64,000 nucleotides of DNA from Chryseolinea soli. GTDB lineage: Bacteria > Bacteroidota > Bacteroidia > Cytophagales > Cyclobacteriaceae. The stretch is taken from NCBI RefSeq assembly GCF_003589925.1, contig NZ_CP032382.1, positions 2,294,001 to 2,358,000 of the forward strand, given 5' to 3'. Positions 42,441 through 56,314 of the stretch are shown here, piece by piece; the stretch's first letter is position 1, and every line of letters starts with the position of its first letter. Under the pieces are notes generated by a model. The model was not told where the DNA came from. It saw only the letters and a list, made by a program, of their open reading frames with translations, and did no database searches. A program made the position numbers and the translations under genes.

Positions 42441-42485
42441 GTGCATTCGGGCGGGCCCCCGCGGCCCCGGAGCTATGAGGTGCAC
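42441..42485. repeat. GC-rich palindromic repeat, copy A
   Basis: Flanked by GTGCA/TGCAC, its core GCGGGCCCCCGCGGCCCCGG is followed by AGCTATGAGGTGC. The reverse complement of this block recurs at 47020-47057, and part of it at 58675-58732. It lies between two convergent genes and overlaps the last base of the ATPase gene. Confidence 0.75.
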
Positions 42486-44572
42486 TATTTTATCCTCAAC
42501 ATTCTCGCATTAATCGCCACCACCACAGTACTCACACTCATCAACACCGCACCCACCGCCGGGCTCAGCATGATGCCGACGCTGTATAAAACGCCTGCCG
42601 CCAATGGTAACGCCACAACATTATATCCGGTGGCCCATGCCAGGTTCTGAATCATTTTTCGATAGGTAGCTTTGCCAAACAGGATCAGGTTGGCGACATC
42701 TCTCGGGTTGCTGTTCACCAGCACGATGTCGGACGTCTCTGCAGCAATGTCGGATCCCGAACCCACGGCGATCCCCACGTCGGCTTGTGCCAGGGCGGGA
42801 GCATCGTTCACGCCATCGCCCGTCATAGCGACAAATTCTCCTTTGCTTTGCAGCTCCTTTATTTTTTCAAGCTTTTGATGAGGGAGGACTTCGGCCATAA
42901 AGCCGTCCATACCCAACGCGTCGCTCACAGTTTTTGCCACAGCCTTGTTGTCGCCGGTGAGCAGCAGCGTCTTGATATTTTGGCTGCGCAACACACGAAT
43001 GACCTCAGCCGACTCCGGACGTACTTCATCGGCCAAAGCTACGAACCCGGCAACAGTGTCGTCAATCATCACATACACGACGGTCTCCGCTTCTGTGGAC
43101 TGAATGGGTTCAACTAAATTATTTTCCCTTAAAAAGAGCGGGCTCACCACCTTCACCGCTCTGCCATCGATGTTGGCCTGTATGCCTTTACCTGTGATAG
43201 CTTTGAAATCTTTTAAAGGGGAGAGCTTTTGATTGAGTTCCTTTGATTTTTTCACAATCCCTGTAGCAATCGGATGCTCTGAATTTCCTTCGAGCGATGC
43301 AGCGAGGGCCAGAATTTGGCCTTTCTCATAAGCCGTGTTCAAGGATTCATATCGCACCACATTGAATTCACCACGTGTCAACGTTCCCGTCTTGTCGAAA
43401 ACCAGGGTCGAGATCTTGTGCGAATTTTCAAACGCTGTCCGGTCTTTTATGAGCAGCCCGCTTTGTGCCGAGATCGCTGTTGACCGGGCCACGACCAAAG
43501 GCACTGCCAAGCCCAGCGCGTGTGGACAGCAAATCACAATGACGGTCACCATCCGCTCCATCGCGAACGCCAGATCTTTTCCCAGCACCAGCCAAACGAT
43601 GAAGGTGGCCGCGCCGGAAAACAGAGCGATCAGCGTGAGCCATTTTGCAGCCCTGTCGGCAAGCAATTGCGTTTTGGATTTGGCGTCCTGCGCATCCGTT
43701 ACCAGTTTGATTACTTGTGCCAGGTAGGAGTCTTTGCTGCCATGCGTAACCTTTACTTTTAAAGATCCTTCTCCGTTGATGGATCCCGCAATAACCTTGT
43801 CGTTGAAATTTTTCTCAATAGGTCTCGACTCCCCCGTTAGCATCGACTCATTCAAAAAGCTTTTCCCCTCCACAATTTCCCCATCGGCCGCGATCTTTTC
43901 GCCCGGCTTCACCAGGATGATATCGCCCGCCTTCAACGTCTCGGTCTTAACATCCATCACATGATCGCCATGCACCAGGTGTGCATCCGAGGGCATCAGT
44001 TGAACGAGCAGTTCCAACTCCCGCGAAGCACTCATGATGGACTTCATCTCAATCCAATGCCCCAGCAACATAATAAGGATAAGGGTTGCCAGCTCCCAAA
44101 AGAAGTCCATCCCCTCCAACCCCAACACTATGGCTACGCTATACGCATAAGCCACCGTGATGGCCACCGCCACCAACGTCATCATCCCCAGCGATCTCGA
44201 TTTTATTTCATCCACCAACCCCGTCAGAAACGGCCATCCCCCATAAAAGAACACAAAACTCGCAAGCAAAAGCAGTACATAGTCCGAACCTGGAAACCCC
44301 CAGTCAACCCTCAGCCAATGCCGGATCATCGGCGACAAAGCCATGATCGGCACCGTCAGCCCAAGAACAACATAGAACCGCTTCTTAAAATCATCGATCA
44401 TCCCGGCATGATGGCCATGCCCCGAATGATTCGCGTGACCGGTCTCAACAGGACCAAGCGGCGAATCGTGATGATGATCCGGAGTAGGGTGATGAGCATG
44501 TGCCTCATGGGTCATGTCCTTCGAATGATCGTGACGGTGTTCCATAAAATGGGCTTTTGTGTTTACTGCCAT
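42485..44572 (-). CDS. CopB-type metal-transporting P-type ATPase
   Basis: P1B ATPase of 695 residues that exports copper or silver ions. The cytoplasmic N-terminus has 16 His within the first 55 residues (for example HDHSKDMTHEAHAHH) instead of a CxxC domain. The membrane metal site is CPH (VIVICCPHALGLAVP), which marks the CopB group. Phosphorylation motif DKTGTLTRG, TGES in the actuator loop, and the hinge TGDGVNDAPALAQADVG are intact. The final helices carry GYNVVALPLAAG. No metal regulator or chaperone is adjacent. An internal ATG nine codons downstream is an alternative start. Confidence 0.93.
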   Translation of the reverse strand: MAVNTKAHFMEHRHDHSKDMTHEAHAHHPTPDHHHDSPLGPVETGHANHSGHGHHAGMIDDFKKRFYVVLGLTVPIMALSPMIRHWLRVDWGFPGSDYVLLLLASFVFFYGGWPFLTGLVDEIKSRSLGMMTLVAVAITVAYAYSVAIVLGLEGMDFFWELATLILIMLLGHWIEMKSIMSASRELELLVQLMPSDAHLVHGDHVMDVKTETLKAGDIILVKPGEKIAADGEIVEGKSFLNESMLTGESRPIEKNFNDKVIAGSINGEGSLKVKVTHGSKDSYLAQVIKLVTDAQDAKSKTQLLADRAAKWLTLIALFSGAATFIVWLVLGKDLAFAMERMVTVIVICCPHALGLAVPLVVARSTAISAQSGLLIKDRTAFENSHKISTLVFDKTGTLTRGEFNVVRYESLNTAYEKGQILALAASLEGNSEHPIATGIVKKSKELNQKLSPLKDFKAITGKGIQANIDGRAVKVVSPLFLRENNLVEPIQSTEAETVVYVMIDDTVAGFVALADEVRPESAEVIRVLRSQNIKTLLLTGDNKAVAKTVSDALGMDGFMAEVLPHQKLEKIKELQSKGEFVAMTGDGVNDAPALAQADVGIAVGSGSDIAAETSDIVLVNSNPRDVANLILFGKATYRKMIQNLAWATGYNVVALPLAAGVLYSVGIMLSPAVGAVLMSVSTVVVAINARMLRIK

Positions 44573-44674
44573 AAAGTAAACAAAACACAGCCCCCGCAGT
44601 GTTGTATTTAACCTTAAAAGATTTACAGAATTAAGGGCAAGCGAACAAATGATTCGGTGCTAACGACCCAATAG

Positions 44675-44748
44675 AGTCAGCGATCGGATTCGAACCGATG
44701 AATATCTCTTTTGCAGAGAGACCCCTTAGACCACTTGGGTACGCCGAC
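44675..44748 (-). tRNA. tRNA-Cys (GCA)
   Basis: Acceptor GTCGGCG pairs with CGCTGAC (one G-T pair). The D stem is CCC/GGG, the anticodon stem TCTCT/AGAGA encloses CTGCAAA (anticodon GCA), and the T arm is ATCGG-TTCGAAT-CCGAT. CCA is not encoded. No TAnnTTTG box lies in the 56 bp between it and the terminator of the upstream leader cassette, so it may depend on transcription through that cassette. Confidence 0.95.
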
Positions 44749-45206: not shown

Positions 45207-45653
45207 ATGGAAATGATCATGTTGATAGGAATCCCCGGAAGTGGCAAGAGCAGCTTTTGCAAGGAAAATCTGTTCGACACGCACGTCCGCATAAGTCTTG
45301 ACCTGGTCAACACCAGGAATAAGGAATGGCAGTTCATGGCGTTAGCTTTTTCCCTTCATCAACGAATGGTGTTGGACAACACCAACGTGACCAAAGCGGA
45401 GCGGGCCGTATACATCGCCGAAGCAAAGCGAAACAAATTTACCTTAACCGGTTACTATTTTGAGTCGCGACTGGAGACGTGCCTGAAGAGAAATGAGGGG
45501 CGCACGGGTAAGGGGAAAATTAATAAGGTTGGGGTGATCGCCAAGCACAAGGCTCTGGAACTGCCGTCCTATGCCGAGGGCTTTGACAAATTGTATTATG
45601 TAAGAATAGAAAACGATCAGTTTCAGATAAACCCATGGAACGATGAAATTTGA
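45207..45653 (+). CDS. P-loop polynucleotide-kinase-like protein
   Basis: 148 residues. Walker A is GIPGSGKSS (residues 8-16, Lys14). A second conserved block LDNTNVTKAERAVYI matches the 'DNTN' region of T4 polynucleotide kinase-type enzymes, and a lid segment has CLKRNEGRTGKGKINKVG. The family phosphorylates 5'-OH ends of RNA or DNA, or is a related small kinase. Only the kinase domain is present, without the phosphatase domain of T4 PNKP. It overlaps the Thg1 gene by 11 bp, so the two are coupled. Cytosolic; 5' RNA end healing is inferred from context. Confidence 0.82.
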   Translation: MEMIMLIGIPGSGKSSFCKENLFDTHVRISLDLVNTRNKEWQFMALAFSLHQRMVLDNTNVTKAERAVYIAEAKRNKFTLTGYYFESRLETCLKRNEGRTGKGKINKVGVIAKHKALELPSYAEGFDKLYYVRIENDQFQINPWNDEI

Positions 45654-46410
45654 GATGTTAGATAAAAAAATGCGTGTTTTCGAGCAAAACATGGATCAAA
45701 CCGTATTGCCCGGACTTTACATTGTCGCGCGACTCGACGGCCGTGGCTTTACAAGGCTCACCAAAGACTTGCTAACCCTCGAGCGGCCGTTTGATTTGCG
45801 TTTCAGAGACGCCATGATCGAAACCGTTAGAGGCCTGATGAATACAGGTTTTAAAATCACGTATGGCTATACGGAGAGCGATGAAATATCATTGCTGTTC
45901 GATATCAATGAGAACAGCTTCGGTCGGAAAGCCAGGAAGCTGGTCTCCCTGTTGGCGGGCGAGGCCAGTGCAAGATTTACGCAGGCCCTGGGAAGCCTGG
46001 GCGTATTCGATTGCCGCATCATTCCCCTCCCCAACGACGATCTGGTCATTGATTATTTCCGGTGGAGGTGCGAGGACGCCAATCGAAATGCACTCAATGC
46101 CTGGTGCTATTGGAAGCTTAGAGACCATGGAATGTCTGCACCGGAGGCGACAAAGCAATTGGAAGGCAGGTCGATCGCCGAAAAGAATGAAATGCTTTTT
46201 CAATTCGGCATCAACTACAACGAATTGCCCGCATGGCAAAAGCGTGGTGTCGGCTTGTTTTATACCGAAGTCGAAAGAGCCTCCCTGAACCCGATGAACA
46301 ACCAGGAAGTAACCGTTTCGCGGAAACAACTCGCCGTGGAGACGGCGCTTCCCCGGAATATGGAATATGATATATTCATAAAAGAACTGCTTACCCGAGA
46401 GACACCATGA
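45643..46410 (+). CDS. Thg1-family 3'-5' nucleotidyltransferase
   Basis: 255 residues of the tRNA-His guanylyltransferase/Thg1-like family, which adds nucleotides to 5' ends in the reverse (3'-5') direction. The palm-domain metal carboxylates are visible: Asp32 in ARLDGRGF and Asp80-Glu81 in YTESDEISLLF. Then come FDCRIIPLP and YFRWRCEDANRNALNAWCYW, as in Thg1. Bacterial Thg1-like proteins repair truncated tRNA 5' ends in a template-dependent way. Since bacterial tRNA-His normally encodes G-1, repair is more likely than tRNA-His maturation. Coupled to the kinase upstream (11-bp overlap) and to the dioxygenase downstream (ATGA overlap). Confidence 0.93.
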   Translation: MKFEMLDKKMRVFEQNMDQTVLPGLYIVARLDGRGFTRLTKDLLTLERPFDLRFRDAMIETVRGLMNTGFKITYGYTESDEISLLFDINENSFGRKARKLVSLLAGEASARFTQALGSLGVFDCRIIPLPNDDLVIDYFRWRCEDANRNALNAWCYWKLRDHGMSAPEATKQLEGRSIAEKNEMLFQFGINYNELPAWQKRGVGLFYTEVERASLNPMNNQEVTVSRKQLAVETALPRNMEYDIFIKELLTRETP

Positions 46411-46955
46411 AAGCGACTGAACTAAAAAAGAACATTTTCCTCATCGAAAATTTCTGGACGACAGACCAATGCGACGACTATATTCAGATCGCCGAAGCCA
46501 TGGGCTATGAACCTGCGACGATTCAAACCGACAATGAACCACGGCTGGTGGATTTTGTAAGAAACAACGACCGCGTCATCTATAAAGACATGGAACTTGC
46601 TCGCCGGCTGTGGGATGAAGTCGCGCCTTATGCTCCGCGCGAAATCGGTGAATCCGTTGCCATAGGAGTCAATGAACAATTCCGGTTTTATAAATATCAA
46701 CCCGGTCAGCAATTCAGAAAGCATCGCGATCAGAGTTACATCAGAAATCGAAGTGAAGCGAGTTACTTTACATTCATGATTTATTTGAATGATGGCTTCA
46801 AGGGCGGCGCTACGACTTTCAATGATCTTGTGGTTGAACCCAAAAAAGGTTCCGCTCTGATCTTTTATCACTACCTGGAACACGAAGGAAGTGAAGTGCT
46901 GGAAGGAATAAAGTACGTGCTTCGGACGGACCTTATGTTTAGACTGAGAGAGTAG
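46407..46955 (+). CDS. 2OG-Fe(II) dioxygenase (prolyl 4-hydroxylase-like)
   Basis: 182 residues. Iron ligands are His106 and Asp108 (RKHRDQS) and His159 (LEHEGSEVLEG); Arg173 (VLRTD) would bind 2-oxoglutarate. YFTFMIYLNDGFKGGATTF is the typical core of the double-stranded beta helix. Members hydroxylate proline or other residues in proteins, and some act on nucleic acids. The gene overlaps the Thg1 stop by 4 bp and ends the first operon. Possible substrates here are a translation factor, ribosomal protein or RNA; not decidable from sequence. Confidence 0.88.
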   Translation: MKATELKKNIFLIENFWTTDQCDDYIQIAEAMGYEPATIQTDNEPRLVDFVRNNDRVIYKDMELARRLWDEVAPYAPREIGESVAIGVNEQFRFYKYQPGQQFRKHRDQSYIRNRSEASYFTFMIYLNDGFKGGATTFNDLVVEPKKGSALIFYHYLEHEGSEVLEGIKYVLRTDLMFRLRE

Positions 46956-47019
46956 GTTCGCGCTGACAGCGTGGTGAGCGTTTGGTGGGATAGGTTTTTT
47001 TGGTGTTACTTTTTTTGGG

Positions 47020-47057
47020 GCATTTCATAGCTCCGCTCCGGGGCCGCGGGGGCCCGC
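47020..47057. repeat. GC-rich palindromic repeat, copy B
   Basis: GCATTTCATAGCTCCGCTCC followed by GGGGCCGCGGGGGCCCGC. It is the reverse complement of copy A (42441-42485) with a 5-bp insertion, and its first half matches an arm and part of the core of copy C (58675-58732). It abuts the long palindrome. Confidence 0.75.
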
Positions 47058-47129
47058 ATGTTCCATCAGGGCTTAACCCTATCCGCGCATGCCAGGCCAA
47101 AGATAGGCTTAGGCCCTGATGGAACATGC
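47056..47129. repeat. 28-bp inverted repeat
   Basis: Arms 47056-47083 and 47102-47129 match at 26 of 28 positions around an 18-nt loop; the outer 17 bp, GCATGTTCCATCAGGGC, are perfect. There is no T run on either side, so a simple terminator is unlikely. A miniature mobile element, a processing site or a transcript-end stabiliser are possible. Confidence 0.8.
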
Positions 47130-47249
47130 TGGAATGTGTGGGGGTGTGGCGAGTATGGCGTGTGGGTGTGAAGGTGAGGGAAGTGTGGGTGTGGGCTTTT
47201 GGATGGTTCTATTGTGGTATTCTTCTCCAAACTTCGATAATTTTCAAAT

Positions 47250-47323
47250 TAGCGTAAAAATTACGCAAATAACCTTCCTTATTTGAAACTGGCCTTGTAC
47301 ATTTGCGTATATATTACACAAAT
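47250..47323. promoter_or_regulatory. Promoter with two palindromic operators before the HAD-SPFH operon
   Basis: Operator 1 has core GCGTAA-AAA-TTACGC (47252-47266). Operator 2 is ATTTGCGTATATATTACACA (47301-47320) plus AAT. Both fit ATTTGCGTA-N-TTACRCAAAT with centres about 53 bp apart. TACATTTG (47298-47305), a consensus -7 box, overlaps operator 2, so a bound protein would block transcription of the operon starting at 47376. Confidence 0.6.
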
Positions 47324-47375
47324 AGCTCTCAAATCTTAGAAGAGGCGAAAATTTTAACGCTAACGTTTACTCCCT

Positions 47376-47798
47376 ATGATCACAAAAGCCATACGCAACT
47401 GCCTCGCCAATGCAAAAGAGAGAAAATGGGACAAAACCTATTGGGCGTTCGATATTCACGGGACCATACTGCGGCCCACCTGTCAGACCGGCGTGATCTC
47501 TACGGAATTTTATCCGTTTGCAAAGGAAGTATTGCAGCTTTTGTCGACTCGGAAAGACATTGTCAGGATCTTGTATACGTGTTCGTATCCGAATGAGATC
47601 GTGGAGTATGTAAAATACTTTGAAGATCACCAGATCCATTTCGATCACGTCAACGAGAACCCGGATGTTGGTGCGGGTGCGTATGGGTTCTATGAGCGGA
47701 AATTTTACTTCAATGTACTCTTTGAAGACAAAGCAGGATTCGACCCGTTGACGGATTGGGAGGATGTGCTAAAACTAATTCAGACTTTTGAAATTTAA
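47376..47798 (+). CDS. Small HAD-like phosphatase
   Basis: 140 residues. Motif I is AFDIHGTILRP: Asp26 is the nucleophile, but the usual second Asp (DxD) is His28. Motif II is ILYTCS (Thr68 or Ser70), and motif IV FEDKAGFD (Asp118, Asp123). No cap domain. In RNA repair clusters such phosphatases remove 3' phosphates or 2',3'-cyclic phosphates; that role is inferred here. First gene of a tight operon, 11 bp before the SPFH gene, behind a promoter with two operators. Confidence 0.8.
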   Translation: MITKAIRNCLANAKERKWDKTYWAFDIHGTILRPTCQTGVISTEFYPFAKEVLQLLSTRKDIVRILYTCSYPNEIVEYVKYFEDHQIHFDHVNENPDVGAGAYGFYERKFYFNVLFEDKAGFDPLTDWEDVLKLIQTFEI

Positions 47799-47809
47799 TC
47801 AGTAAAAAT

Positions 47810-48829
47810 ATGTTCGGTATCAACTACATCAAATTCGATTCCATGACGTATGCCATTCACTACGCGCATGGAAATGTCAAGAGAGAGGGAAGGGGCCTGG
47901 CCTTCTTCTATTATTCGCCTACGTCGTCCATTACGGCTGTGCCGCTGGGCAGCAAGGACATTTTGTTCATTTTCAATGAGACCACTAAAGACTTTCAAAC
48001 GATCACCATACAGGGACAGATCACCTATGCGATCGAGAACCCCAAGCAGCTTTCCGAAATGCTTGATTTCACGTTGGATGACGGGCGAAAGCTCAACGAA
48101 GCCAACTTTGAAAAGTTGAGCCAGCGACTTAACAATGAGGCGCAAACCGCCACATCGTCCTTTATCCAAAGCATCGGGCTGAAGGAAACCCTGAGGAGTG
48201 CACGCGAGATCAGCGACCGGATAAAGGCAGGGTTGGAGCAATCCGACGCGGTAAAGCTGTTGGGTGTGTCCATATTAAGTGTCGACGTGCTTGCCGTGCG
48301 GCCCACGCCGGAGATGGCAAAGGCGCTCGAAACCGAGATGCGCGAAAGCCTTCAGCGCGAGGCCGACCAGGCGATCTATGAGCGGAGAAATTTTGCTGTG
48401 GAACAGGAGCGCATGATCAGCGAAAGCGAACTCAATACCGAGATCGCCGTGCAGGAGAAACGGAAACAGATCAACGAAAAGCAGGCCGAGATCAAAGTAA
48501 AGGAAGCCGAGAATGCCCGGCGTCTTCGCGAAATGACGGTGGCTGCCGATTTGTCCGTGGAAGAACAAAGAACCAAACTCATCGAAATGCAAGTCGAGAA
48601 CGAGCGAAAGGTTGCCGATGCGAAAGGCTACACGTTGGAAAAAACGCTGACGCCCTACAAACAAATGGATTGGCGAACCCTGATGGCCATTAATTCCAAA
48701 GGCATCTCGGCAATCGACAACATCGGTTTTGCCTTTCGGGAGTTAGCAGAGAATTCCAGTAAGATCGGGACGCTAAACATCACACCCGATTTGTTGGATA
48801 CGGTCATCAAAAATCAACGGTCAAAGTAA
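47810..48829 (+). CDS. SPFH/Band-7 domain protein
   Basis: 339 residues. The N-terminal two fifths form an SPFH/Band-7 (prohibitin-like) domain: ITIQGQITYAIENPKQL, then VKLLGVSILSVDVLAVRPTP. A coiled coil rich in Glu, Lys and Gln spans about residues 175-275 (EKRKQINEKQAEIKVKEAEN), followed by a globular tail. Unlike flotillins it has no membrane segment or signal, so it is probably a cytosolic oligomeric scaffold. SPFH modules have been noted as scaffolds in bacterial RNA repair clusters, which fits its neighbours. Second gene of the operon. Confidence 0.88.
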   Translation: MFGINYIKFDSMTYAIHYAHGNVKREGRGLAFFYYSPTSSITAVPLGSKDILFIFNETTKDFQTITIQGQITYAIENPKQLSEMLDFTLDDGRKLNEANFEKLSQRLNNEAQTATSSFIQSIGLKETLRSAREISDRIKAGLEQSDAVKLLGVSILSVDVLAVRPTPEMAKALETEMRESLQREADQAIYERRNFAVEQERMISESELNTEIAVQEKRKQINEKQAEIKVKEAENARRLREMTVAADLSVEEQRTKLIEMQVENERKVADAKGYTLEKTLTPYKQMDWRTLMAINSKGISAIDNIGFAFRELAENSSKIGTLNITPDLLDTVIKNQRSK

Positions 48830-48853
48830 AGAACGGCTTCGGCCGTTGCGACT

Positions 48854-49783
48854 ATGCAAATCGAAAAAGCAATCGTCATCGTTAACAAAACAAGACTCGA
48901 GAACTTGATCGAGCGCTTCAATACCAAGGCGCAGGCGAAGTTCTATATCGAGCACGCAGGTGGCGACTTCGGTGACTATGAGCGCGAGCACGAGATCTTT
49001 CATGCGTCGCTGGAAGCGGTGAAGAAAACCGTGCAACATCACTTCAAGATGAAGGTTGTTGAGCGGGCGTTCATCACCAACTTTCTTTTTGCCAAAGACG
49101 ATCTGGTGGTTGTGGTGGGACAGGATGGGTTGGTGGCAAATGCGGCCAAATATGTCAACGGCCTCCCCATGCTCGCCATCAATCCCGACGAGAAACGTTA
49201 TGATGGTGTGCTCTTGCCTTTTAACACAACAAACTATGAAACCGGTCTTCAAAATGTATTGACGGGAAAAGGAAGGTTTCAGGAGATCACACTTGCCGAG
49301 GCGCGTACAAATGATGGCCAGCGGCTGCTGGCGTTCAACGATTTGTTTATCGGCCCGGCCACGCATGCGTCGGCGCGGTATAGGATCACGCATGCCGGGC
49401 GGTCGGAGCAGCAAAGTTCAAGCGGCATCATTGTGTCTACCGGCGCGGGAAGTACGGGATGGCTTAGTTCGGTCATGAACATGACAAACGGTGTTACGGC
49501 CGTCTTTGGTAAATTTGCAAAGTCCAATGTGTCGTTGGCCTTGCCGTGGAACACCGATGCGTTGGCCTATGTGGTCCGGGAGCCGTTCCAAAGTAAGCAT
49601 TCGGGCATTAGCCTTTCGGGCGGACTGATTCATTCAGGAGAGCGACTTAGTATCGAATCGTACATGCCTTCGAGCGGGGTGATCTTCAGCGACGGCATCG
49701 AGTCCGATTACATCCAATTTAATTCGGGGACAAAAGTTGAAATTGCGACGGCTTCTCAAAAGGCTGTGTTGATCTTAAAATAA
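48854..49783 (+). CDS. NAD-kinase-like protein
   Basis: 309 residues. The centre has SSGIIVSTGAGSTGWLSSV, the equivalent of the TPTGSTAY nucleotide-binding loop of NAD/diacylglycerol kinases. The preceding FAKDDLVVVVGQDGLVANAA resembles the GGDG motif, with GQDG instead. The C-terminal half is beta-rich (SGISLSGGLIHSGERLSIES), as in NAD kinases. It may phosphorylate or sense NAD(H) or a related nucleotide. Encoded between the SPFH and ADP-ribosylglycohydrolase genes, pointing to NAD/ADP-ribose chemistry in this system. It is a diverged relative, not the housekeeping NadK. Confidence 0.75.
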   Translation: MQIEKAIVIVNKTRLENLIERFNTKAQAKFYIEHAGGDFGDYEREHEIFHASLEAVKKTVQHHFKMKVVERAFITNFLFAKDDLVVVVGQDGLVANAAKYVNGLPMLAINPDEKRYDGVLLPFNTTNYETGLQNVLTGKGRFQEITLAEARTNDGQRLLAFNDLFIGPATHASARYRITHAGRSEQQSSSGIIVSTGAGSTGWLSSVMNMTNGVTAVFGKFAKSNVSLALPWNTDALAYVVREPFQSKHSGISLSGGLIHSGERLSIESYMPSSGVIFSDGIESDYIQFNSGTKVEIATASQKAVLILK

Positions 49784-49793
49784 TTTTGCGCAA

Positions 49794-50756
49794 ATGAAAT
49801 TTGAAAATATAACCTCCTGCTTCCTCGGCCTTGCCATTGGTGATGCGTTGGGCGTGCCTGTCGAATTTAAAGGCCGGTCATACTTCAGCAACCAACCGGT
49901 ACGAGGCATGTTGGGATATGGCACCTGGAATCAGCCCCCAGGCACTTGGTCGGACGACAGCTCTCTCACCTTCTGCCTTGCCGAGTCTTTGGTCGCGGGA
50001 TATGATTTGAATGACATCGGAAAAAAATTTGTTGCCTGGTATTCCAACGGCTACTGGGGAGCGCATCATAAATTGTTTGATGTCGGAGGCACTACCCGTG
50101 TTGCACTGGCTAGAATAAGAGACGGCGAAGATCCGAAGTTCGCGGGCGAGCTTGATGAGGATTCTAACGGCAACGGCTCTTTAATGCGCATCGCGCCTGC
50201 GCCGCTTTATTTTTGTAATGAAACGGATGAGGTTTTATTCGAGCGTATAAAAGAGATCTCTTCCGTAACACATGGTCACTTCAGATCGGTGTTGTCCTGT
50301 TTTATTTTTTCGAAAGTGATGATCGAACTATTTAAAGGGGAAGATAAATCGAGCGCACTGCAAAATGCCGTTGAGGCTACAAAAGACTTCTCGCATAGGA
50401 GTGAATTTAATGTCGCTGAACTGGAGAAATTCGATCGTGTACTATCCGGAAAGATACAGCACGTCCACGCAAACCAAATATCCAGCTCGGGCTATGTATT
50501 GCATACCCTCGAGGCTGCGCTGTGGTGTTTTCTCAATACTGATTCCTATCGCGATGCCGTATTGAAGGCGGTTAACCTGGGTGGCGATACGGACACAACG
50601 GGCTGTGTAGCCGGGGCGCTGGCGGGACTGTATTATGGCGAATCTTCTCTGCCGATGGAATGGACCATAGCCCTCGCCAGAGAAAAAGACATTATTAAAT
50701 TGGCCGGGGACTTTACGGAATCGATAAAGAACAAGATATTAGATGGAAAATCCTGA
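49794..50756 (+). CDS. ADP-ribosylglycohydrolase family protein
   Basis: 320 residues of the DraG/ARH fold. Metal-binding motifs are visible: SCFLGLAIGDALGVPVEF at the N-terminus, GTWSDDSSLTFCLAESL at about residues 43-60, and VNLGGDTDTTGCVAGALAG near the C-terminus. The family removes ADP-ribose from proteins or nucleic acids, or hydrolyses related conjugates. Here it could reverse ADP-ribosylation of RNA ends or proteins, or act on nucleotide signals; the target is inferred only from the neighbours. It lies 10 bp after the NAD-kinase-like gene and 2 bp before the next gene. Confidence 0.92.
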   Translation: MKFENITSCFLGLAIGDALGVPVEFKGRSYFSNQPVRGMLGYGTWNQPPGTWSDDSSLTFCLAESLVAGYDLNDIGKKFVAWYSNGYWGAHHKLFDVGGTTRVALARIRDGEDPKFAGELDEDSNGNGSLMRIAPAPLYFCNETDEVLFERIKEISSVTHGHFRSVLSCFIFSKVMIELFKGEDKSSALQNAVEATKDFSHRSEFNVAELEKFDRVLSGKIQHVHANQISSSGYVLHTLEAALWCFLNTDSYRDAVLKAVNLGGDTDTTGCVAGALAGLYYGESSLPMEWTIALAREKDIIKLAGDFTESIKNKILDGKS

Positions 50757-50758
50757 TC

Positions 50759-52348
50759 ATGTATCTACTTTTTCCTGGTCGTCACCAGCTGCTTACTAAT
50801 TTTCAGTTTGAATATCTCCACTCCATTATCAATAATGTAAGCAAAAGCAGCGACATCAATGGCCAGCCGTTGAAGCTGGATGCAACGGTGCAAGCCGTTA
50901 TTTTTGCCGTGACGTCCGCTAACCATAGCAACACCCGGAGGAATCCGCTGCCGTTTTATCTTCGTGCACTGGCCATCCAGGAGTTTGCCCGTGAGTTCAA
51001 TGTGCCCGTGTATGTATATGGTATCGACGATGTGGGCAATCTCCCGAACTTCGCCAGCTATACGCTTAAAACCGTTAAGCACGAAAGCGAGGGACTTTTT
51101 AACCTTTCTCCGTCCAACACAGCGGTGGTGTGTTCAACACCGGTGTTAACCATGTACGAAAAATTGGGATTCGCTATTCTTCCAGCCGAACTCAGCGATC
51201 GAAAGGCGTGGACCTACCAACATCAGCTTCCCTGGGATCTTGTCGAGAAAATCGCCAACGACCCGGAGTGGGGCTCAAAAGCCGAAATTGTTCGCGACAT
51301 CCATGTTTCGTCGCGGGAGCTCTGGGAAAAATACCGGCTCGACCATAAGGTAAGGCTCCTCTTCAAAGACACCATGATCGGCGACGACGGCGACATCACC
51401 ACCACCCGCGACTATAACACCTATGTGCGGCAGATGGACGAGATCGCCGAACTGAAATATCGCGAAACCGCATCCCATGTCAGGCCGGGTCGCATCGGCG
51501 ACATTGGTTGTGCCGTGGGGTCCTGGATCAAGCTGGCGTGCAACGACGAGCGCTATCGTGAATCGGATTTCTATGGCATCGAAGTCGCCCGCCACCTCTA
51601 CGACATTTGCTATCAGCGAAAACACAATGGTGAATTTGCCAACCCCTTTGTTTTCTTCCTGCAACGCAATGCGGTGACAGGCCTGGTGTTCGACGCCAAC
51701 TCGATGAATACCATCCACACCTCATCCCTCACCCACGAAATCGAATCGTATGGCAGCCGGAACGAACTCCTGCAGTTTATTCGAAACCGCTACCAGGAAT
51801 TGGCCAATGGCGGCATCTGGATCAATCGCGATGTGGTCGGCCCAAGCGACAAGGAAAAAATTGTGCTCATGAAATTGACCACGGCCGATGGCAGGAATGA
51901 TGACTACGATAAGGTGCATACGGGCCGCAAGGAACTGAGGGATTACCTGGCCGGACTTTCCACCTACGGCAGATTTCTCCGGTTTGCGCAAGACTTCAGG
52001 AAAAAGGAAGGCTACACGCTGAAGCATAAAATCCTGGAGCGGGAAGGAGAATATTATATTCAGCTCACTCTTCAGGATGCTTGCGAATTTATGAGCCGGA
52101 AAGATTACATCGACAATTGGCAAAGCGAAATGCACGAAACGTTTTGCTTCTGGGATTTTGACGAATGGAAACAGCATCTTGAGCAGGCGGGATTCACGAT
52201 CGCCCCCGAATCAAAAGCCTACACCAATCCGTGGATCGTAGAGAACCGGCTCCGCGGCAAACTCGAGCTCTTCGAACAAACGGAAAATGGCCTGTGGCAA
52301 ATAGAGTATCCTGTAACAAATATGATTTTGTTGGGAGAAAAGCGATGA
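50759..52348 (+). CDS. HIGH-superfamily nucleotidyltransferase-SAM methyltransferase fusion
   Basis: 529 residues. The N-terminal part (about 1-145) resembles NMN adenylyltransferases: LFPGRHQLLTNFQFEYLH corresponds to the GRFQPFHxGH motif, with HIGH reduced to NFQF, and TSANHSNTRRNPLPF to the SAxxSxTxxNPF motif. The second part (about 240-410) is a Rossmann methyltransferase with motif I GDIGCAVGSWIK (residues 247-258) and FYGIEVARHLYDIC. A C-terminal region of about 110 residues is unassigned. Methylation could protect RNA ends, as Hen1 does in Pnkp systems, while the first domain may transfer a nucleotide. Both roles are inferred. Last gene of the tight operon. Confidence 0.7.
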   Translation: MYLLFPGRHQLLTNFQFEYLHSIINNVSKSSDINGQPLKLDATVQAVIFAVTSANHSNTRRNPLPFYLRALAIQEFAREFNVPVYVYGIDDVGNLPNFASYTLKTVKHESEGLFNLSPSNTAVVCSTPVLTMYEKLGFAILPAELSDRKAWTYQHQLPWDLVEKIANDPEWGSKAEIVRDIHVSSRELWEKYRLDHKVRLLFKDTMIGDDGDITTTRDYNTYVRQMDEIAELKYRETASHVRPGRIGDIGCAVGSWIKLACNDERYRESDFYGIEVARHLYDICYQRKHNGEFANPFVFFLQRNAVTGLVFDANSMNTIHTSSLTHEIESYGSRNELLQFIRNRYQELANGGIWINRDVVGPSDKEKIVLMKLTTADGRNDDYDKVHTGRKELRDYLAGLSTYGRFLRFAQDFRKKEGYTLKHKILEREGEYYIQLTLQDACEFMSRKDYIDNWQSEMHETFCFWDFDEWKQHLEQAGFTIAPESKAYTNPWIVENRLRGKLELFEQTENGLWQIEYPVTNMILLGEKR

Positions 52349-52746
52349 GGGGAGAATTCCATACGGCCCGACCGTTATTTAGAATCTCTCCAACTTTTTA
52401 AAAAATTCAAATCACTTCACAGAGAATTTGAAATACAATCCTAACTTTGCTTTAGCATTTCACTCTAATGTATAACCCAAAATAGAGTAAAACATGTTGG
52501 TCCTAAGTTTACATATCCCCAAATAGCAGCCCCGGCAAGCATTCTTACCGGATCAAACCCGCTGTATCTAACAAATTTAGATTTCAAAACATCAAAGGCC
52601 ACACCTGGCTTTGAAAGGAGTTTCTTTATGCATTCAAAAGAATGCTATAAAAAATATCTTTCATCCATAGGCACGCGATGAAAAGGAAATGAAGACTAAA
52701 GAATCATCCTTGCCCACGGCAAGGATCAAGCAATCATTTTGAAAAA
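52349..52746 (+). other. Structured 398-bp leader before the AAA-protease gene
   Basis: No long ORF. A -7-like TAACTTTG lies at 52442-52449. Four hairpins follow: 52532-52551 (CCGG and AAG arms with one mismatch), 52594-52612 (GCCA/TGGC plus AAA/TTT), 52630-52645 (GCATTC/GAATGC) and 52708-52724 (CCTTGCC/GGCAAGG). An AAAGGAG with 7-nt spacing precedes a 17-codon ORF (52628-52681) whose start is inside the third hairpin. It looks like a long regulatory leader or an independent small RNA. Confidence 0.5.
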
Positions 52747-54813
52747 ATGGAAACAACAACTTTACATAAAGAGCTAATAGAAAAACGCCAAAAGCTTCAA
52801 ACGATCACCGCCGCACTCAAGGAGCGTTTCCTTGGTCTCGACGGTGTCATCGATGAAGTCATGGCCATCTTATTGCCGTGGCATCTTTTCCCCGAAGCAC
52901 AACTGCGTCCCACGGTAATCAACCTCTGGGGCCTCACCGGCTCCGGCAAGACCGCTTTGGTGCAAGCCATCGTCGAGCTCCTGGACCACCGGAAATTATA
53001 CAGTCACATCGACATGGGTGAATTCGAGTCCGACAGCGCCACCTGGATGAAAAACATCCTCACCGACGATCTGGCTTTTTTCCACGAGAAACCCGCGCTC
53101 ATCTGTCTCGACGAATTCCAATTTGCCCGGACCCTCGATGCCAACAGCAACGAGCTTGGCAAAGACAAACTCCGTGTCATCTGGGATCTGCTCGACTCCG
53201 GCAAGATCGAATACATTCCCAGCCGCGGTACATTCTATCTTTTCCGCGCCGACAGCTGTCTCCGGCGCATGGAGCGCGCATACAAAGGCAACGTGGCGCT
53301 GGCACAAGGCAAAGTTGTCGGCGAAACCGAAACCTTCATGAAGATCTTCGAAGGCTTCTATTTCGACAACGCCAACGCGAGCATGACGGTCGACTATTTC
53401 ACATCGGCCGACTTCATCGAAGGCATGTACTATCTCATCGACAACGACGAGTGCTCCAAGGAATACATCAGGCAACGCATTTTTGCTGCCACGCTTCCCG
53501 AGCTCATTGCTTTTGTGCTGGAAGGCATGCAATCGCGTCCCGCCACAAAAACGTTGGACCTTTCGCACGCCATCATTTTTGTGCTTGGCAACCTGGACGA
53601 GGCCTACACCATGAGCCACAGCATGAACCCCGACATCAGCGCCGACGAGTTCCACGAGCAAACGTCCAAGATCACCATCGCGCACATCAAACGCGCGTTG
53701 CGTCGAAGATTCCGTCCCGAGCAGATCGCGCGGTTGGGCAACAACCACGTCATCTACAAGTCGTTCAACAGTGCCCAGTTCCGCCTGCTCATCCAGCAGG
53801 AATTGAACCGGGTGGGAGATTTCATTCGGCAAAAGTTTGGATGGATGACCCGCTTCGATGAGTCGGTGGCGGACGTGGTCTATGCCGAAGGTGTTTTCCC
53901 CGCCCAGGGCACGCGCCCCGTGCTGACGACGGTGAAGAACCTGGTCGAGTCCCGGATCAGCAACCTCGCCGTTTCCATTCTCGAATACCAATGGACCATT
54001 CACGAAATTGTATGGGCTTTCCACGACGGACATTTTGTGTATACGCTGCTGAACGCGGAAGGCGAAACCGTGTCCACCATCTCCGACAAAGCGCGCCTCA
54101 AGCTCGAGAACCTGCGCAAGAGCGTGGACCCCGAACTCCAGGCCCACACCGCCGTGCACGAAGCCGGCCACGCCGTGCTCGCAGCCCTCACGTTGCGCAT
54201 CGTTCCCTCCGCGGTAGTGTCGCGAACGGCGTCGGACGCCGAAGGATTTTGCCTGATCACCTTTCCAAAAGGCCCCATGACGCGCGAGACATTGAAGAAA
54301 GATATCGTCATCACACTCGGCGGTTATGTGGCGGAGCGCATGGTCTTCGGCGAGGAGATGACGTGCTCCGGCGTGTCGGCCGACATTCAGGAAGCCTCAT
54401 CGCTGGCAAACAAAGCCGTGCGACAATTTGCCATGGGCAGCGACCCGATCTACCTGGCTGTGGAGAGCACGCAAAATGAAGAGGCCTTCTTTCTCTCCGA
54501 GCGCTACGCTACAGAAGCCATCAAGCTCGTCCGTGATGGCGAGCGTGAGGCAGAATTAATTCTGCAGCGCAACAAACTGCTGCTGCTCAAAATGGCGGAG
54601 TACCTCACGAAGCATTCGAGAATGGAAGAGGCTTTGATCGGGGAATACGTCATGAAATATGGCAAAGAATCGTGGCTGGAAACCGAGGGATTGATAAAGA
54701 AGGATCAGTACTACCGGTTCAATACCGTGATGGAAGACCAGTTGCGAGCGTTGGAAAAAAATGATGTGGAGACCGTAATGGAAAAGCTCATCGCCGAAGT
54801 GACGCGCGGATAA
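52747..54813 (+). CDS. AAA+ ATPase-M41 peptidase fusion protein
   Basis: 688 residues. The AAA+ module (about 20-370) has Walker A GLTGSGKT (residues 62-69), Walker B LICLDEF (Asp122, Glu123) and a Clp/Hsp100-like end with RRRFRPEQIARLGNNHVIY. The M41 zinc protease module begins near 465: HEAGH at 471-475, with the third ligand probably Asp546 in GVSADIQEAS. FtsH has another AAA class and membrane anchors; no membrane segment is seen here, so this is a soluble ATP-dependent protease-like machine of unusual build. It probably remodels or degrades proteins of the RNA-repair system. It follows a structured leader of 398 bp. Confidence 0.85.
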   Translation: METTTLHKELIEKRQKLQTITAALKERFLGLDGVIDEVMAILLPWHLFPEAQLRPTVINLWGLTGSGKTALVQAIVELLDHRKLYSHIDMGEFESDSATWMKNILTDDLAFFHEKPALICLDEFQFARTLDANSNELGKDKLRVIWDLLDSGKIEYIPSRGTFYLFRADSCLRRMERAYKGNVALAQGKVVGETETFMKIFEGFYFDNANASMTVDYFTSADFIEGMYYLIDNDECSKEYIRQRIFAATLPELIAFVLEGMQSRPATKTLDLSHAIIFVLGNLDEAYTMSHSMNPDISADEFHEQTSKITIAHIKRALRRRFRPEQIARLGNNHVIYKSFNSAQFRLLIQQELNRVGDFIRQKFGWMTRFDESVADVVYAEGVFPAQGTRPVLTTVKNLVESRISNLAVSILEYQWTIHEIVWAFHDGHFVYTLLNAEGETVSTISDKARLKLENLRKSVDPELQAHTAVHEAGHAVLAALTLRIVPSAVVSRTASDAEGFCLITFPKGPMTRETLKKDIVITLGGYVAERMVFGEEMTCSGVSADIQEASSLANKAVRQFAMGSDPIYLAVESTQNEEAFFLSERYATEAIKLVRDGEREAELILQRNKLLLLKMAEYLTKHSRMEEALIGEYVMKYGKESWLETEGLIKKDQYYRFNTVMEDQLRALEKNDVETVMEKLIAEVTRG

Positions 54814-54844
54814 AGTAAATAATAATGATAAACGAAAATGAATA

Positions 54845-55834
54845 ATGTTAAAACGAAGTAATATTAAAGTGGATTCCACCCCAACCTCGCTCCATTGGTA
54901 TAATGGCGCTTTGGTGGATTGGACGTCGGGAATCCTGTATAAATTGAATGGCGAACAACAACGCAGCCAATATAGTATTGGCGGCTCTTTTGATGGCGTG
55001 CGGCAATCGTCCGACGGCGTGTATGCCGTTGTTTTTGACCGACACGGAACGAAGGGGTTGGTGTTGAAGCATGGAAAAATCATAAGGGAGATCAATCGCT
55101 CTTATTATTGTGCTCAAGCTTATGAGTATCCGATTGAGATCATAAAGTTGCCCGAGGGGTATGCTATTGTCCATTGCCCGGAGGAATATAATTTGATTGA
55201 AATTGAGCTTATAGAATCCGGAAAGAAAGTAACCCAAACAGAAGGTAGAAAACCCGCGGACTGTTTTCACACCAGGTTGCAAGTCAACCCCTCGAACACG
55301 CACATGTTGAATGCCGGTTGGGTATGGCATCCTTATGGGATCCTGGAATTGTATGATCTGAAGCATGCCATCGCAGACAACAGCCTGTTCGATAATTTGT
55401 CTGTGAAGATTCCCATCAGCGGGGAAGTAGGTTCGGCCGCGTTTTTGGGTGATGATCATTTTGTCGTGGGAACAACTTACGAAGGACCCCTTGACGATGA
55501 AGCGCCTGACGAGAACGAATTAGGACCTAATCAGATTGGACTGTTCTCTATATCCGCGAATCGATTCGTGAAGGTGTGTTCGGTTGATCGTACCATCGGG
55601 ACTTTGGTGCCGATGAGTGCAGACTATGTTTTGGATTTATATCAACATCCCAAGGTCATCGACATTAATAGTGGAGCAGTTCTGGAATCCGTTACGGACA
55701 TTGATTCCGGCAAGCAGGACTTGGCGATTACTCATCGTTCGGACATGATCCCTCCTATGGCCATTTCGCTTGCAGAGCGAAGAATTGCGATTGGAGCGGG
55801 GAACGCAATCGAGATACTGGAATGGCCCGCGTAG
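54845..55834 (+). CDS. Predicted beta-propeller-like protein of the RNA-repair locus
   Basis: 329 residues without signal or membrane segment. Repeating beta-strand units of about 45 residues (for example GALVDWTSGILYKLNG, GVYAVVFDRHGTKGLVLKHG, GSAAFLGDDHFVVGTTY, RRIAIGAGNAIEILEW) look like WD40-style blades, though no canonical WD dipeptides are seen. It lies 31 bp after the protease gene, probably in the same operon, and may serve as adaptor or substrate receptor. I do not recognise a specific family. Confidence 0.6.
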   Translation: MLKRSNIKVDSTPTSLHWYNGALVDWTSGILYKLNGEQQRSQYSIGGSFDGVRQSSDGVYAVVFDRHGTKGLVLKHGKIIREINRSYYCAQAYEYPIEIIKLPEGYAIVHCPEEYNLIEIELIESGKKVTQTEGRKPADCFHTRLQVNPSNTHMLNAGWVWHPYGILELYDLKHAIADNSLFDNLSVKIPISGEVGSAAFLGDDHFVVGTTYEGPLDDEAPDENELGPNQIGLFSISANRFVKVCSVDRTIGTLVPMSADYVLDLYQHPKVIDINSGAVLESVTDIDSGKQDLAITHRSDMIPPMAISLAERRIAIGAGNAIEILEWPA

Positions 55835-55960
55835 GGCAGCGGAAATAATCACCCTAAAGATCTGCCGTGTGAATGCGACGATCATGGTTTTGAAACTAAT
55901 GATCAAAAAAAGAGACGATCGCACACGCTATAACTTACTTTTGAATTCACGGCCATAGAA

Positions 55961-56314
55961 ATGAACTACAAGCTTTTCCTCGACGACCTCCGCCAGGTCC
56001 AAAGCATTTACCCTCACGCTGCCGAATCCGATTTCGTCGTCGTCCGCTCCTGTGCCGACTTCATCAAAACGATCCAACAAAAGGGCCTCCCCGAATTCAT
56101 AAGCTTCGACAACGACCTGGGCTGCGACGAAAACGAAGTTCCCCTGCCCGAGGGATACGATGCGGCAAAATGGTTGGTCTATGAAAGCGGCATGGATTTG
56201 TCCGAGCTAAAATTCAGCGTCCATTCTTCAAACCCGGTGGCCAAGGTGAACATCACTTCGCTGCTGGATAACTATATTAAATTTTTGAGATCTTCGAAGG
56301 GGACAAACTTTTAG
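55961..56314 (+). CDS. cREC-type (cyclic-phosphate-processing receiver-like) protein
   Basis: 117 residues. FLDDLRQVQ near the N-terminus (Asp8, Asp9) and ISFDNDLGCDE (Asp50, Asp52) are the acidic positions of a receiver-like fold, followed by GYDAAKWLVYESG and FSVHSSNPVAK. This is the pattern of the cREC family, which comparative genomics links to RNA and cyclic-phosphate processing rather than two-component signalling. That assignment is from memory of the family. It probably closes the RNA-repair locus, 126 bp after the propeller gene. Confidence 0.75.
   Translation: MNYKLFLDDLRQVQSIYPHAAESDFVVVRSCADFIKTIQQKGLPEFISFDNDLGCDENEVPLPEGYDAAKWLVYESGMDLSELKFSVHSSNPVAKVNITSLLDNYIKFLRSSKGTNF

Follow-up and report, generated by a model that had tools for sequence, protein, structure and literature searches.

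Several described systems resemble parts of a run of eleven genes at positions 45207–56314 of the window, a 64,000-nucleotide stretch (2,294,001–2,358,000) of the single-contig 8.24-Mb genome of Chryseolinea soli. The NrtR regulon of NAD metabolism, reportedly delineated by Rodionov et al. in 2008, is said to combine a Nudix-winged-helix regulator with palindromic operators before NadM/NadV genes. FtsH is an M41 protease working with the SPFH proteins HflK/HflC. Thg1 and a polynucleotide kinase were described as conserved neighbors with a proposed role in RNA repair (Anantharaman, Iyer and Aravind 2010, PMC2904730). Iyer et al. 2022 (PMC9503650) predicted systems that center on ADP-ribosylglycohydrolase (ARG) and have Nudix-HTH or WYL regulators, and operons of RtcB RNA repair are known as well (Hughes et al. 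2020, PMC7790460). The kinase-Thg1 pairing and NrtR control are thus already published.

The locus is composed of three adjoining modules and is no single RNA-repair operon. The first-pass annotation had combined all eleven genes into one multi-step tRNA healing or stress system; the genes it named are present with the spacing it claimed, in three plus-strand runs separated by gaps of 420 and 398 bp. Block 1 (45207–46955) is represented by kinase-Thg1(-2OG), where 2OG denotes a 2OG-Fe(II) dioxygenase gene. Block 2 (47376–52348) includes HAD, SPFH, NAD kinase-like (NADK), DraG and NMN-adenylyltransferase (NMNAT)/methyltransferase genes, the last of which is designated NMTase. Block 3 (52747–56314) consists of AAA-M41, a gene for a 329-aa protein and cREC. 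Annotation of the locus as one tRNA-healing operon is inadvisable.

In a phylum-wide search of 247 genomes, NMTase was found in two and AAA-M41 in four, the own genome included; due to this scarcity the family was chosen as the sample. NMTase was sought in 390 family genomes and AAA-M41 in 148. The NMTase neighborhoods read comprise 35 stretches from 34 other genomes, mostly of about 20 kb and some ending at contig ends (643 kb in total). Thg1 loci are the best 80 of 558 candidate relatives, taken from named genomes, several of these loci being short. Gene-set counts were made by script, and operator boxes within 10 bp of each other were merged.

NMTase occurs in 35 of the 390 family genomes, window genome included. 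In 22 of the 34 other genomes NrtR, NadM-Nudix and NadV are encoded on the NMTase strand, and these full sets contain HAD in 20 cases, Prs in 19 (three at 24–25% identity) and DraG in nine (three at 25% identity). Wherever NADK is present (nine loci), the gene immediately before it is SPFH. An NrtR match is present in 26 of the 34, one of them only 33% identical and another beside a truncated NMTase. Gene order varies, NMTase standing first and NrtR afterwards in some genera; one of the 22 runs (L149) is interrupted by two opposite-strand ORFs, and one locus (L135) carries PnuC and a NadR-like protein in the same run.

Two palindromes lie within the 420-bp gap ahead of block 2 (Table 1). Scanning of the genome gave like sites at 1,763,092, 1,763,146 and 1,763,884, in the region of a DUF4291, NadM-Nudix and NadV operon with the NrtR gene upstream; the third box is located inside the longest nrtR ORF (TTG start), just ahead of the first internal ATG. 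An identical palindrome type is therefore found at the regulator gene, the NAD genes and block 2, and five of the six distinct sites with no more than one mismatch genome-wide belong to block 2 and the nrtR/nadM locus. At 5.69 Mb and 3.13 Mb the palindrome was also found, with no recognized NAD or repair neighbors; these sites were set aside as probable chance. At up to three mismatches, 57 boxes were counted in the 35 NMTase stretches and three in the own nrtR/nadM locus, against one box in the control, the 80 Thg1 loci (1.38 Mb). Box pairs 51–55 bp apart occur in 17 of the 35 stretches and in the own NadM locus, and in none of the control loci; mononucleotide shuffles yielded 0, 0, 0, 0 and 2 boxes. 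The own regulator matches NrtR_WHD (PF21906, E 1.5e-21) and NUDIX (5e-20); its match to the NCBIfam NtrR model (9e-41) is below the cut-off of that model. Judging from sequence and association, the palindromes are putative NrtR-type operators, which NrtR would bind in a ligand-dependent manner.

Since block 2 is associated with NrtR, NadM and NadV and boxes are concentrated around it, this block is best read as half of a predicted NrtR-type NAD operon, split from the NadM-NadV part. It shares with the NrtR regulon the Nudix-winged-helix regulator and palindromic operators before NadM/NadV; here, however, the regulon is extended by HAD, SPFH, NADK2-like, DraG and NMNAT/methyltransferase genes, the operators are paired about 54 bp apart, and the genes are split over two places. 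An NrtR-type regulon can thus be named with three unexplained members, namely SPFH, the NADK2-like protein and the NMNAT/methyltransferase.

The NMN adenylyltransferase fold of the NMTase was found by structural match, the model being moderate (pLDDT 73). This match is better evidence than HHalign of NMTase against NadM alignments, which gave a short match only (probability 41). In 27 of 27 sequences T13, Q16 and L130 replace H, H and R (motif positions matched by eye), presumably the catalytic HxGH and the ISSTxxR arginine of NMNAT; the own-genome NadM retains HxGH. Because of these replacements NMTase is expected to bind a ligand and not to synthesize NAD. A pyridine nucleotide may be the ligand of the NMNAT-like domain, which may in turn guide the methyltransferase.

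Block 1 has different company. In 75 of the 80 Thg1 loci the gene immediately upstream of Thg1, in the same orientation, is that of the kinase, with an identical offset of 436 bp in 47. In three (L004–L006) the pair is part of a WYL, TROVE, SPFH, RtcB run, and at least one match to WYL, TROVE, RtcB or RlaP was obtained in ten (the queries were family-derived, and distant versions would escape them). The carboxylates D32, D80 and E81 of Thg1, which are presumably catalytic, are invariant in 16 aligned sequences, and the protein is the single Thg1 match in the window genome. Its family predicts 3'-5' nucleotide addition, and bacterial Thg1-like proteins mend 5'-truncated tRNAs in vitro (PMC6471195). 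Kinase-Thg1 is accordingly a predicted RNA 5'-end repair pair, of the same two families as the pair described in 2010; here 2OG follows and an NrtR-type operon adjoins, whereas MACRO and RNA ligase neighbors are named in PMC2904730. Elsewhere, 2OG genes follow Thg1 in Chryseolinea serpens (L002), adjoin RlaP-type genes in G261 and lie ahead of nrtR in G553.

Block 3 points to RtcB. A close AAA-M41 gene directly follows rtcB in six of the seven other genomes read (G377, G318, G261, G400, G437, G452), although the copies in G400, G437 and G452 were found only via rtcB loci, which favors adjacency. Among matches of more than 50% identity from the 148-genome search, outside the window, AAA-M41 is situated after rtcB in three of three. 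The exception is C. serpens, in which AAA-M41 is accompanied by the 329-aa protein and cREC near kinase-Thg1-2OG and does not follow rtcB. AAA-M41 is highlighted by these data as a candidate RtcB partner, the gene link being observed and the function predicted from it. The likeness to described RtcB operons (PMC7790460) consists in rtcB-centered repair, to which relatives of the present locus add TROVE, tRNA genes, RlaP nucleotidyltransferases and WYL; the differences are AAA-M41 as an rtcB neighbor and the position of rtcB outside the window, at 1.77–1.78 Mb. An M41 protease with HExxH and SPFH proteins are shared with FtsH-HflK/HflC. Here evident membrane anchors are lacking, and an interaction of the two proteins is proposed by analogy.

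A single multi-step tRNA-healing system of all genes, as suggested by the first-pass annotation, is very unlikely. RNA repair is a fitting role for the kinase, Thg1, cREC and the rtcB-linked protease alike, and for block 1 the suggestion holds, given the kinase-Thg1 linkage and the few relatives inside the RtcB-containing run. It fails for block 2, which keeps NrtR, NadM-Nudix and NadV company and carries NrtR-type operators; besides, Thg1 is present in only 10 of the 35 NMTase-positive genomes. The association of the protease and of NAD/ADP-ribose chemistry with RNA repair survives in spirit, through AAA-M41 after rtcB and through the nearness of NrtR to rtcB described below, and not as a healing operon formed by block 2 itself.

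The two kinds of modules meet at another place in the own genome. Within 1.760–1.782 Mb, NadV, NadM, DUF4291 and NrtR are followed by rtcB, WYL, SPFH, a second rtcB and a 136-aa J1 gene, other genes being interspersed. Partners of all three window blocks, as defined in other genomes, are contained in this 22-kb stretch. The SPFH beside the rtcB of this genome matches the HflK model at 1.9e-15, below the cut-off. The window is devoid of rtcB, and the only RtcB matches of the genome are at 1.771 and 1.779 Mb. Since partners of all three modules share one 22-kb stretch, RNA repair and NAD supply are probably responses to insults of a related kind, for example a tRNase or NAD-consuming attack. The locus would then consist of three neighboring stress modules, an explanation which is considered somewhat more probable than its negation. 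The most likely course of events is that an RNA-repair arm and an NAD/ADP-ribose arm, whose joint function is suggested by these arrangements, respond to related stresses and drift into and out of adjacency.

The nearness recurs in another genus. In G480, a span of 20 kb contains rtcB, kinase-Thg1, the NrtR-to-NMTase run and, beside nrtR, a SIR2-like gene; rtcB and the kinase are separated by several other genes. In G261, of the same genus as the window genome, nrtR, AAA-M41-rtcB, RlaP-type genes, 2OG and J1 are found within 18 kb; NMTase and Thg1 were searched for in G261 and neither was found. Of the 29 genomes in which both NMTase and rtcB occur, 3 have NrtR no more than about 11 kb from rtcB, against an expectation of 0.18 (P 0.0009). 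In the first family sample Thg1 was present in 2 of 9 NMTase-positive versus 3 of 139 NMTase-negative genomes, relatedness being uncorrected. Genes of the J1_134 family are met repeatedly, adjoining kinase-Thg1 or 2OG-nrtR and close to rtcB; the family is a candidate new ADP-ribose or RNA-repair protein. No published account of the extended NrtR operon or of its nearness to RtcB repair was found in a limited literature search.

These observations have to be weighed against chance: the modules could be mere neighbors beside tRNA-Cys, block 2 serving NAD salvage and block 1 RNA repair, each by itself and without a joint function. Much speaks for this possibility and against a joint one. HAD, SPFH, NADK and NMTase of block 2 are in none of the 80 Thg1 loci, and DraG has one match there (L081, 24% identity). 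The first-pass annotation named a lack of recurrent co-occurrence as its refutation, and this lack is in part observed: the modules adjoin in 2 of the 10 NMTase genomes with Thg1 (the window genome and G480); in three others the modules are at least 0.5 Mb apart on one contig (about 0.6 Mb in G377, about 1.2 Mb in G452) and in five they are on different contigs. Of the 35 NMTase-centered stretches (up to 20 kb each), RtcB and KptA are matched in none and Thg1 only in that of G480, which makes module adjacency rare. As far as contigs reach, rtcB is not within 11 kb of NrtR in 26 of the 29 genomes; because G000 and G377 belong to one genus, the three positive cases represent two independent events, with P of about 0.015 instead of 0.0009. 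No box was detected ahead of block 1 or block 3, and hence the blocks have no common operator upstream. The full NrtR-NadM-NadV-NMTase set is missing from 12 of the 34 genomes, and eight have no NrtR match in the stretch, three of these being cases of a short contig or a broken or truncated NMTase. In C. serpens (L002) blocks 1 and 3 are close, with no block 2 between them and no rtcB in its 20 kb; the neighborhood is therefore young, and the rtcB/AAA-M41 adjacency is not universal. Similar rtcB genes without adjoining AAA-M41 were observed in six genomes (G397, G417, G465, G545, G581, G589). Of the loci read, only one in G545 (contig also L004) showed KptA, the own genome not having been searched for it. 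Chance neighborhood is nevertheless regarded as possible but on balance improbable, since partners of all three modules are together at one other place, the nearness recurs in G480, and J1_134 and 2OG genes adjoin both module kinds.

Under the preferred explanation of related stresses, the kinase would phosphorylate 5'-OH ends and Thg1 would add missing nucleotides in the 3'-to-5' direction, as family membership and the published gene pairing suggest. Breakdown of NAD to ADP-ribose could free NrtR from its paired operators, whereupon NadV and NadM would rebuild NAD from nicotinamide. DraG could strip ADP-ribose from macromolecules, and the NADK2-like protein could make or control NADP. Clearance of proteins at or close to damaged RNPs may fall to AAA-M41, perhaps with an SPFH ring gating it in the way that HflKC gates FtsH. 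Repair of the KptA type consumes NAD and yields an ADP-ribose derivative (PMC9503650); this chemistry would be one link between RNA repair and NAD. In this way the locus provides a testable connection of NAD/ADP-ribose homeostasis with RNA repair in bacteria.

A stronger version, in which a single stress programme of the family covers both RNA repair and NAD metabolism, the attackers that cut tRNA being also those that consume NAD, is rather doubtful. An ADP-ribose-responsive NrtR regulon would refill and guard NAD, the altered NMNAT-methyltransferase would act as a pyridine-nucleotide-guided modifier, and kinase-Thg1, RtcB and a soluble AAA-M41 would mend RNA and clear stalled protein.

Alternatively, the genes could represent an anti-phage ADP-ribose countermeasure of the ARG-centered type. 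The signal read by NrtR would then be ADP-ribose released through DraG, and the NAD genes would serve only to replenish the pool. The combination of ARG with a Nudix-HTH regulator and a phosphatase is the template given in section 3.8 of PMC9503650, the three components being supplied here by DraG, the NrtR gene and HAD, and NADAR, a further shared family, is encoded after NMTase in one relative (G553); the SIR2-like gene beside nrtR in G480 also agrees with this idea. It is unlikely, however, since DraG is missing from 13 of the 22 full sets and ARG is therefore not the constant core, and since PADLOC, run on ten proteins without cREC, gave only a 2OG model and weak AAA matches. The NAD salvage genes are more constant than DraG, the regulator is elsewhere in the genome and tied to block 2 by operator sequence only, and SPFH, NAD kinase and NMNAT do not occur as words in the text of PMC9503650. 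Peptide-binding chaperone, ARPP and rhodanese-phosphatase partners did not turn up in general domain scans, no aimed search being made for them. As to phage origin, tblastn of NMTase and the NADK-like protein, the only block genes tried, gave no match in 50,697 phage records.

Table 1. Features of the three blocks and of the gap ahead of block 2 (window positions).
Feature	Position	Strand	Evidence
P-loop polynucleotide-kinase-like protein, 148 aa, predicted RNA 5'-OH kinase	45207..45653	+	AAA_33 E 1.2e-11; GIPGSGKS at residue 8
Thg1-type 3'-5' nucleotidyltransferase (TLP)	45643..46410	+	Thg1 and Thg1C domains
2OG-Fe(II) dioxygenase	46407..46955	+	PF13640 E 4e-12
Putative NrtR-type operator 1, palindrome, 1 mismatch to pattern	47249..47269		TTAGCGTAAAAATTACGCAAA
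Putative NrtR-type operator 2, 0 mismatches, 53 bp from operator 1	47302..47322		TTTGCGTATATATTACACAAA
HAD phosphatase-like protein, DxH in motif I	47376..47798	+	NCBIfam HAD_phos_BT0820 E 1.2e-5, below cut-off
SPFH/Band-7 protein, no clear membrane segment	47810..48829	+	PF01145 E 3e-16
NAD kinase 2-like protein	48854..49783	+	best PDB match mitochondrial NAD kinase 2, E 5e-9
ADP-ribosylglycohydrolase, DraG/ARH type	49794..50756	+	PF03747 E 3.5e-81; SDD and DTDT motifs
NMN-adenylyltransferase-like domain fused to class I methyltransferase	50759..52348	+	
AAA+/M41 metalloprotease, no evident N-terminal membrane anchor	52747..54813	+	PF01434 E 3e-18; GLTGSGKT, HEAGH
329-aa protein, putative propeller according to the earlier reader	54845..55834	+	no Pfam/NCBIfam match; present in C. 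serpens
cREC, cyclic-phosphate-processing receiver domain	55961..56314	+	PF20274 E 3e-23

The genes of block 1 overlap by 11 bp (kinase/Thg1) and 4 bp (Thg1/2OG), and the kinase protein matches the kinase region of PNK models at E 1.4e-10, below the cut-off. In block 2, the motif DIH of the HAD protein, an unusual DxH form, is kept in at least 95% of 21 sequences. The maximum 19-residue hydropathy of SPFH is 1.61 by a crude test; the same test gave 1.61 for AAA-M41, at residue 473 inside the protease domain. The NADK-like protein has the motifs GQDG, FND and STGAGST, its match to Pfam NAD_kinase being below the cut-off. The SDD and DTDT motifs of DraG presumably bind metal. For cREC, opening of cyclic phosphates on RNA ends and on ADP-ribose derivatives has been predicted (PMC9503650).

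Divergent AAA-M41 genes adjoin a WYL gene in five of six loci read, with the WYL domain confirmed in the two scanned; no WYL was found in the sixth (L118), whose gene is 1.5 kb from a contig end. Divergent matches in G053, G194, G276 and G301 are outside these six loci. Further downstream of AAA-M41, G318 carries genes for an RNA ligase and an HD-kinase, and the same kinase match and sizes were obtained in G437 and G452. In G261 a gene set with MoxR-type AAA and DUF5682 proteins is inserted between nrtR and AAA-M41-rtcB (L113 1179–8459).

Members of J1_134 have 130–136 aa and no Pfam/NCBIfam match (L130 16829–17233; L166 15280–15690). A WYL regulator fused to a PhyH-type dioxygenase (L158 16401–18134) is divergent from TROVE-SPFH-RtcB-kinase-Thg1, and a 72% identical WYL-PhyH protein is encoded in the window's own genome (L166 9004–10743). 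Four tRNA genes (Leu, Arg, Pro, Tyr) are situated between TROVE and rtcB in G480 (L154 14471–15704), and tRNA genes are also beside TROVE or SPFH in L155 and L158. Rfam at gathering thresholds gave tRNAs only in the window and three loci. In the window, tRNA-Cys (44674–44748, minus strand) is about 460 bp ahead of kinase-Thg1, and in L002 and L003, too, a tRNA-Cys gene is found before the pair.

Upstream of tRNA-Cys there is a copper-type P-type ATPase gene (42485–44572, named by eye). The best named matches of the window Thg1 and AAA-M41 are those of C. serpens, with 84% identity each. In that species a similar P-type ATPase protein is encoded between blocks 1 and 3 (L002 11373–13433), at the place occupied here by block 2, and the region has therefore been rearranged. 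The gap between blocks 1 and 2 contains a long inverted repeat, GCATGTTCCATCAGGGC ... GCCCTGATGGAACATGC (47056–47129, seen by eye), which may be a mobile palindromic element. A comparable repeat is apparently present ahead of AAA-M41 in C. serpens (L002, ~14.1–14.5 kb), as judged from ORF translation only.

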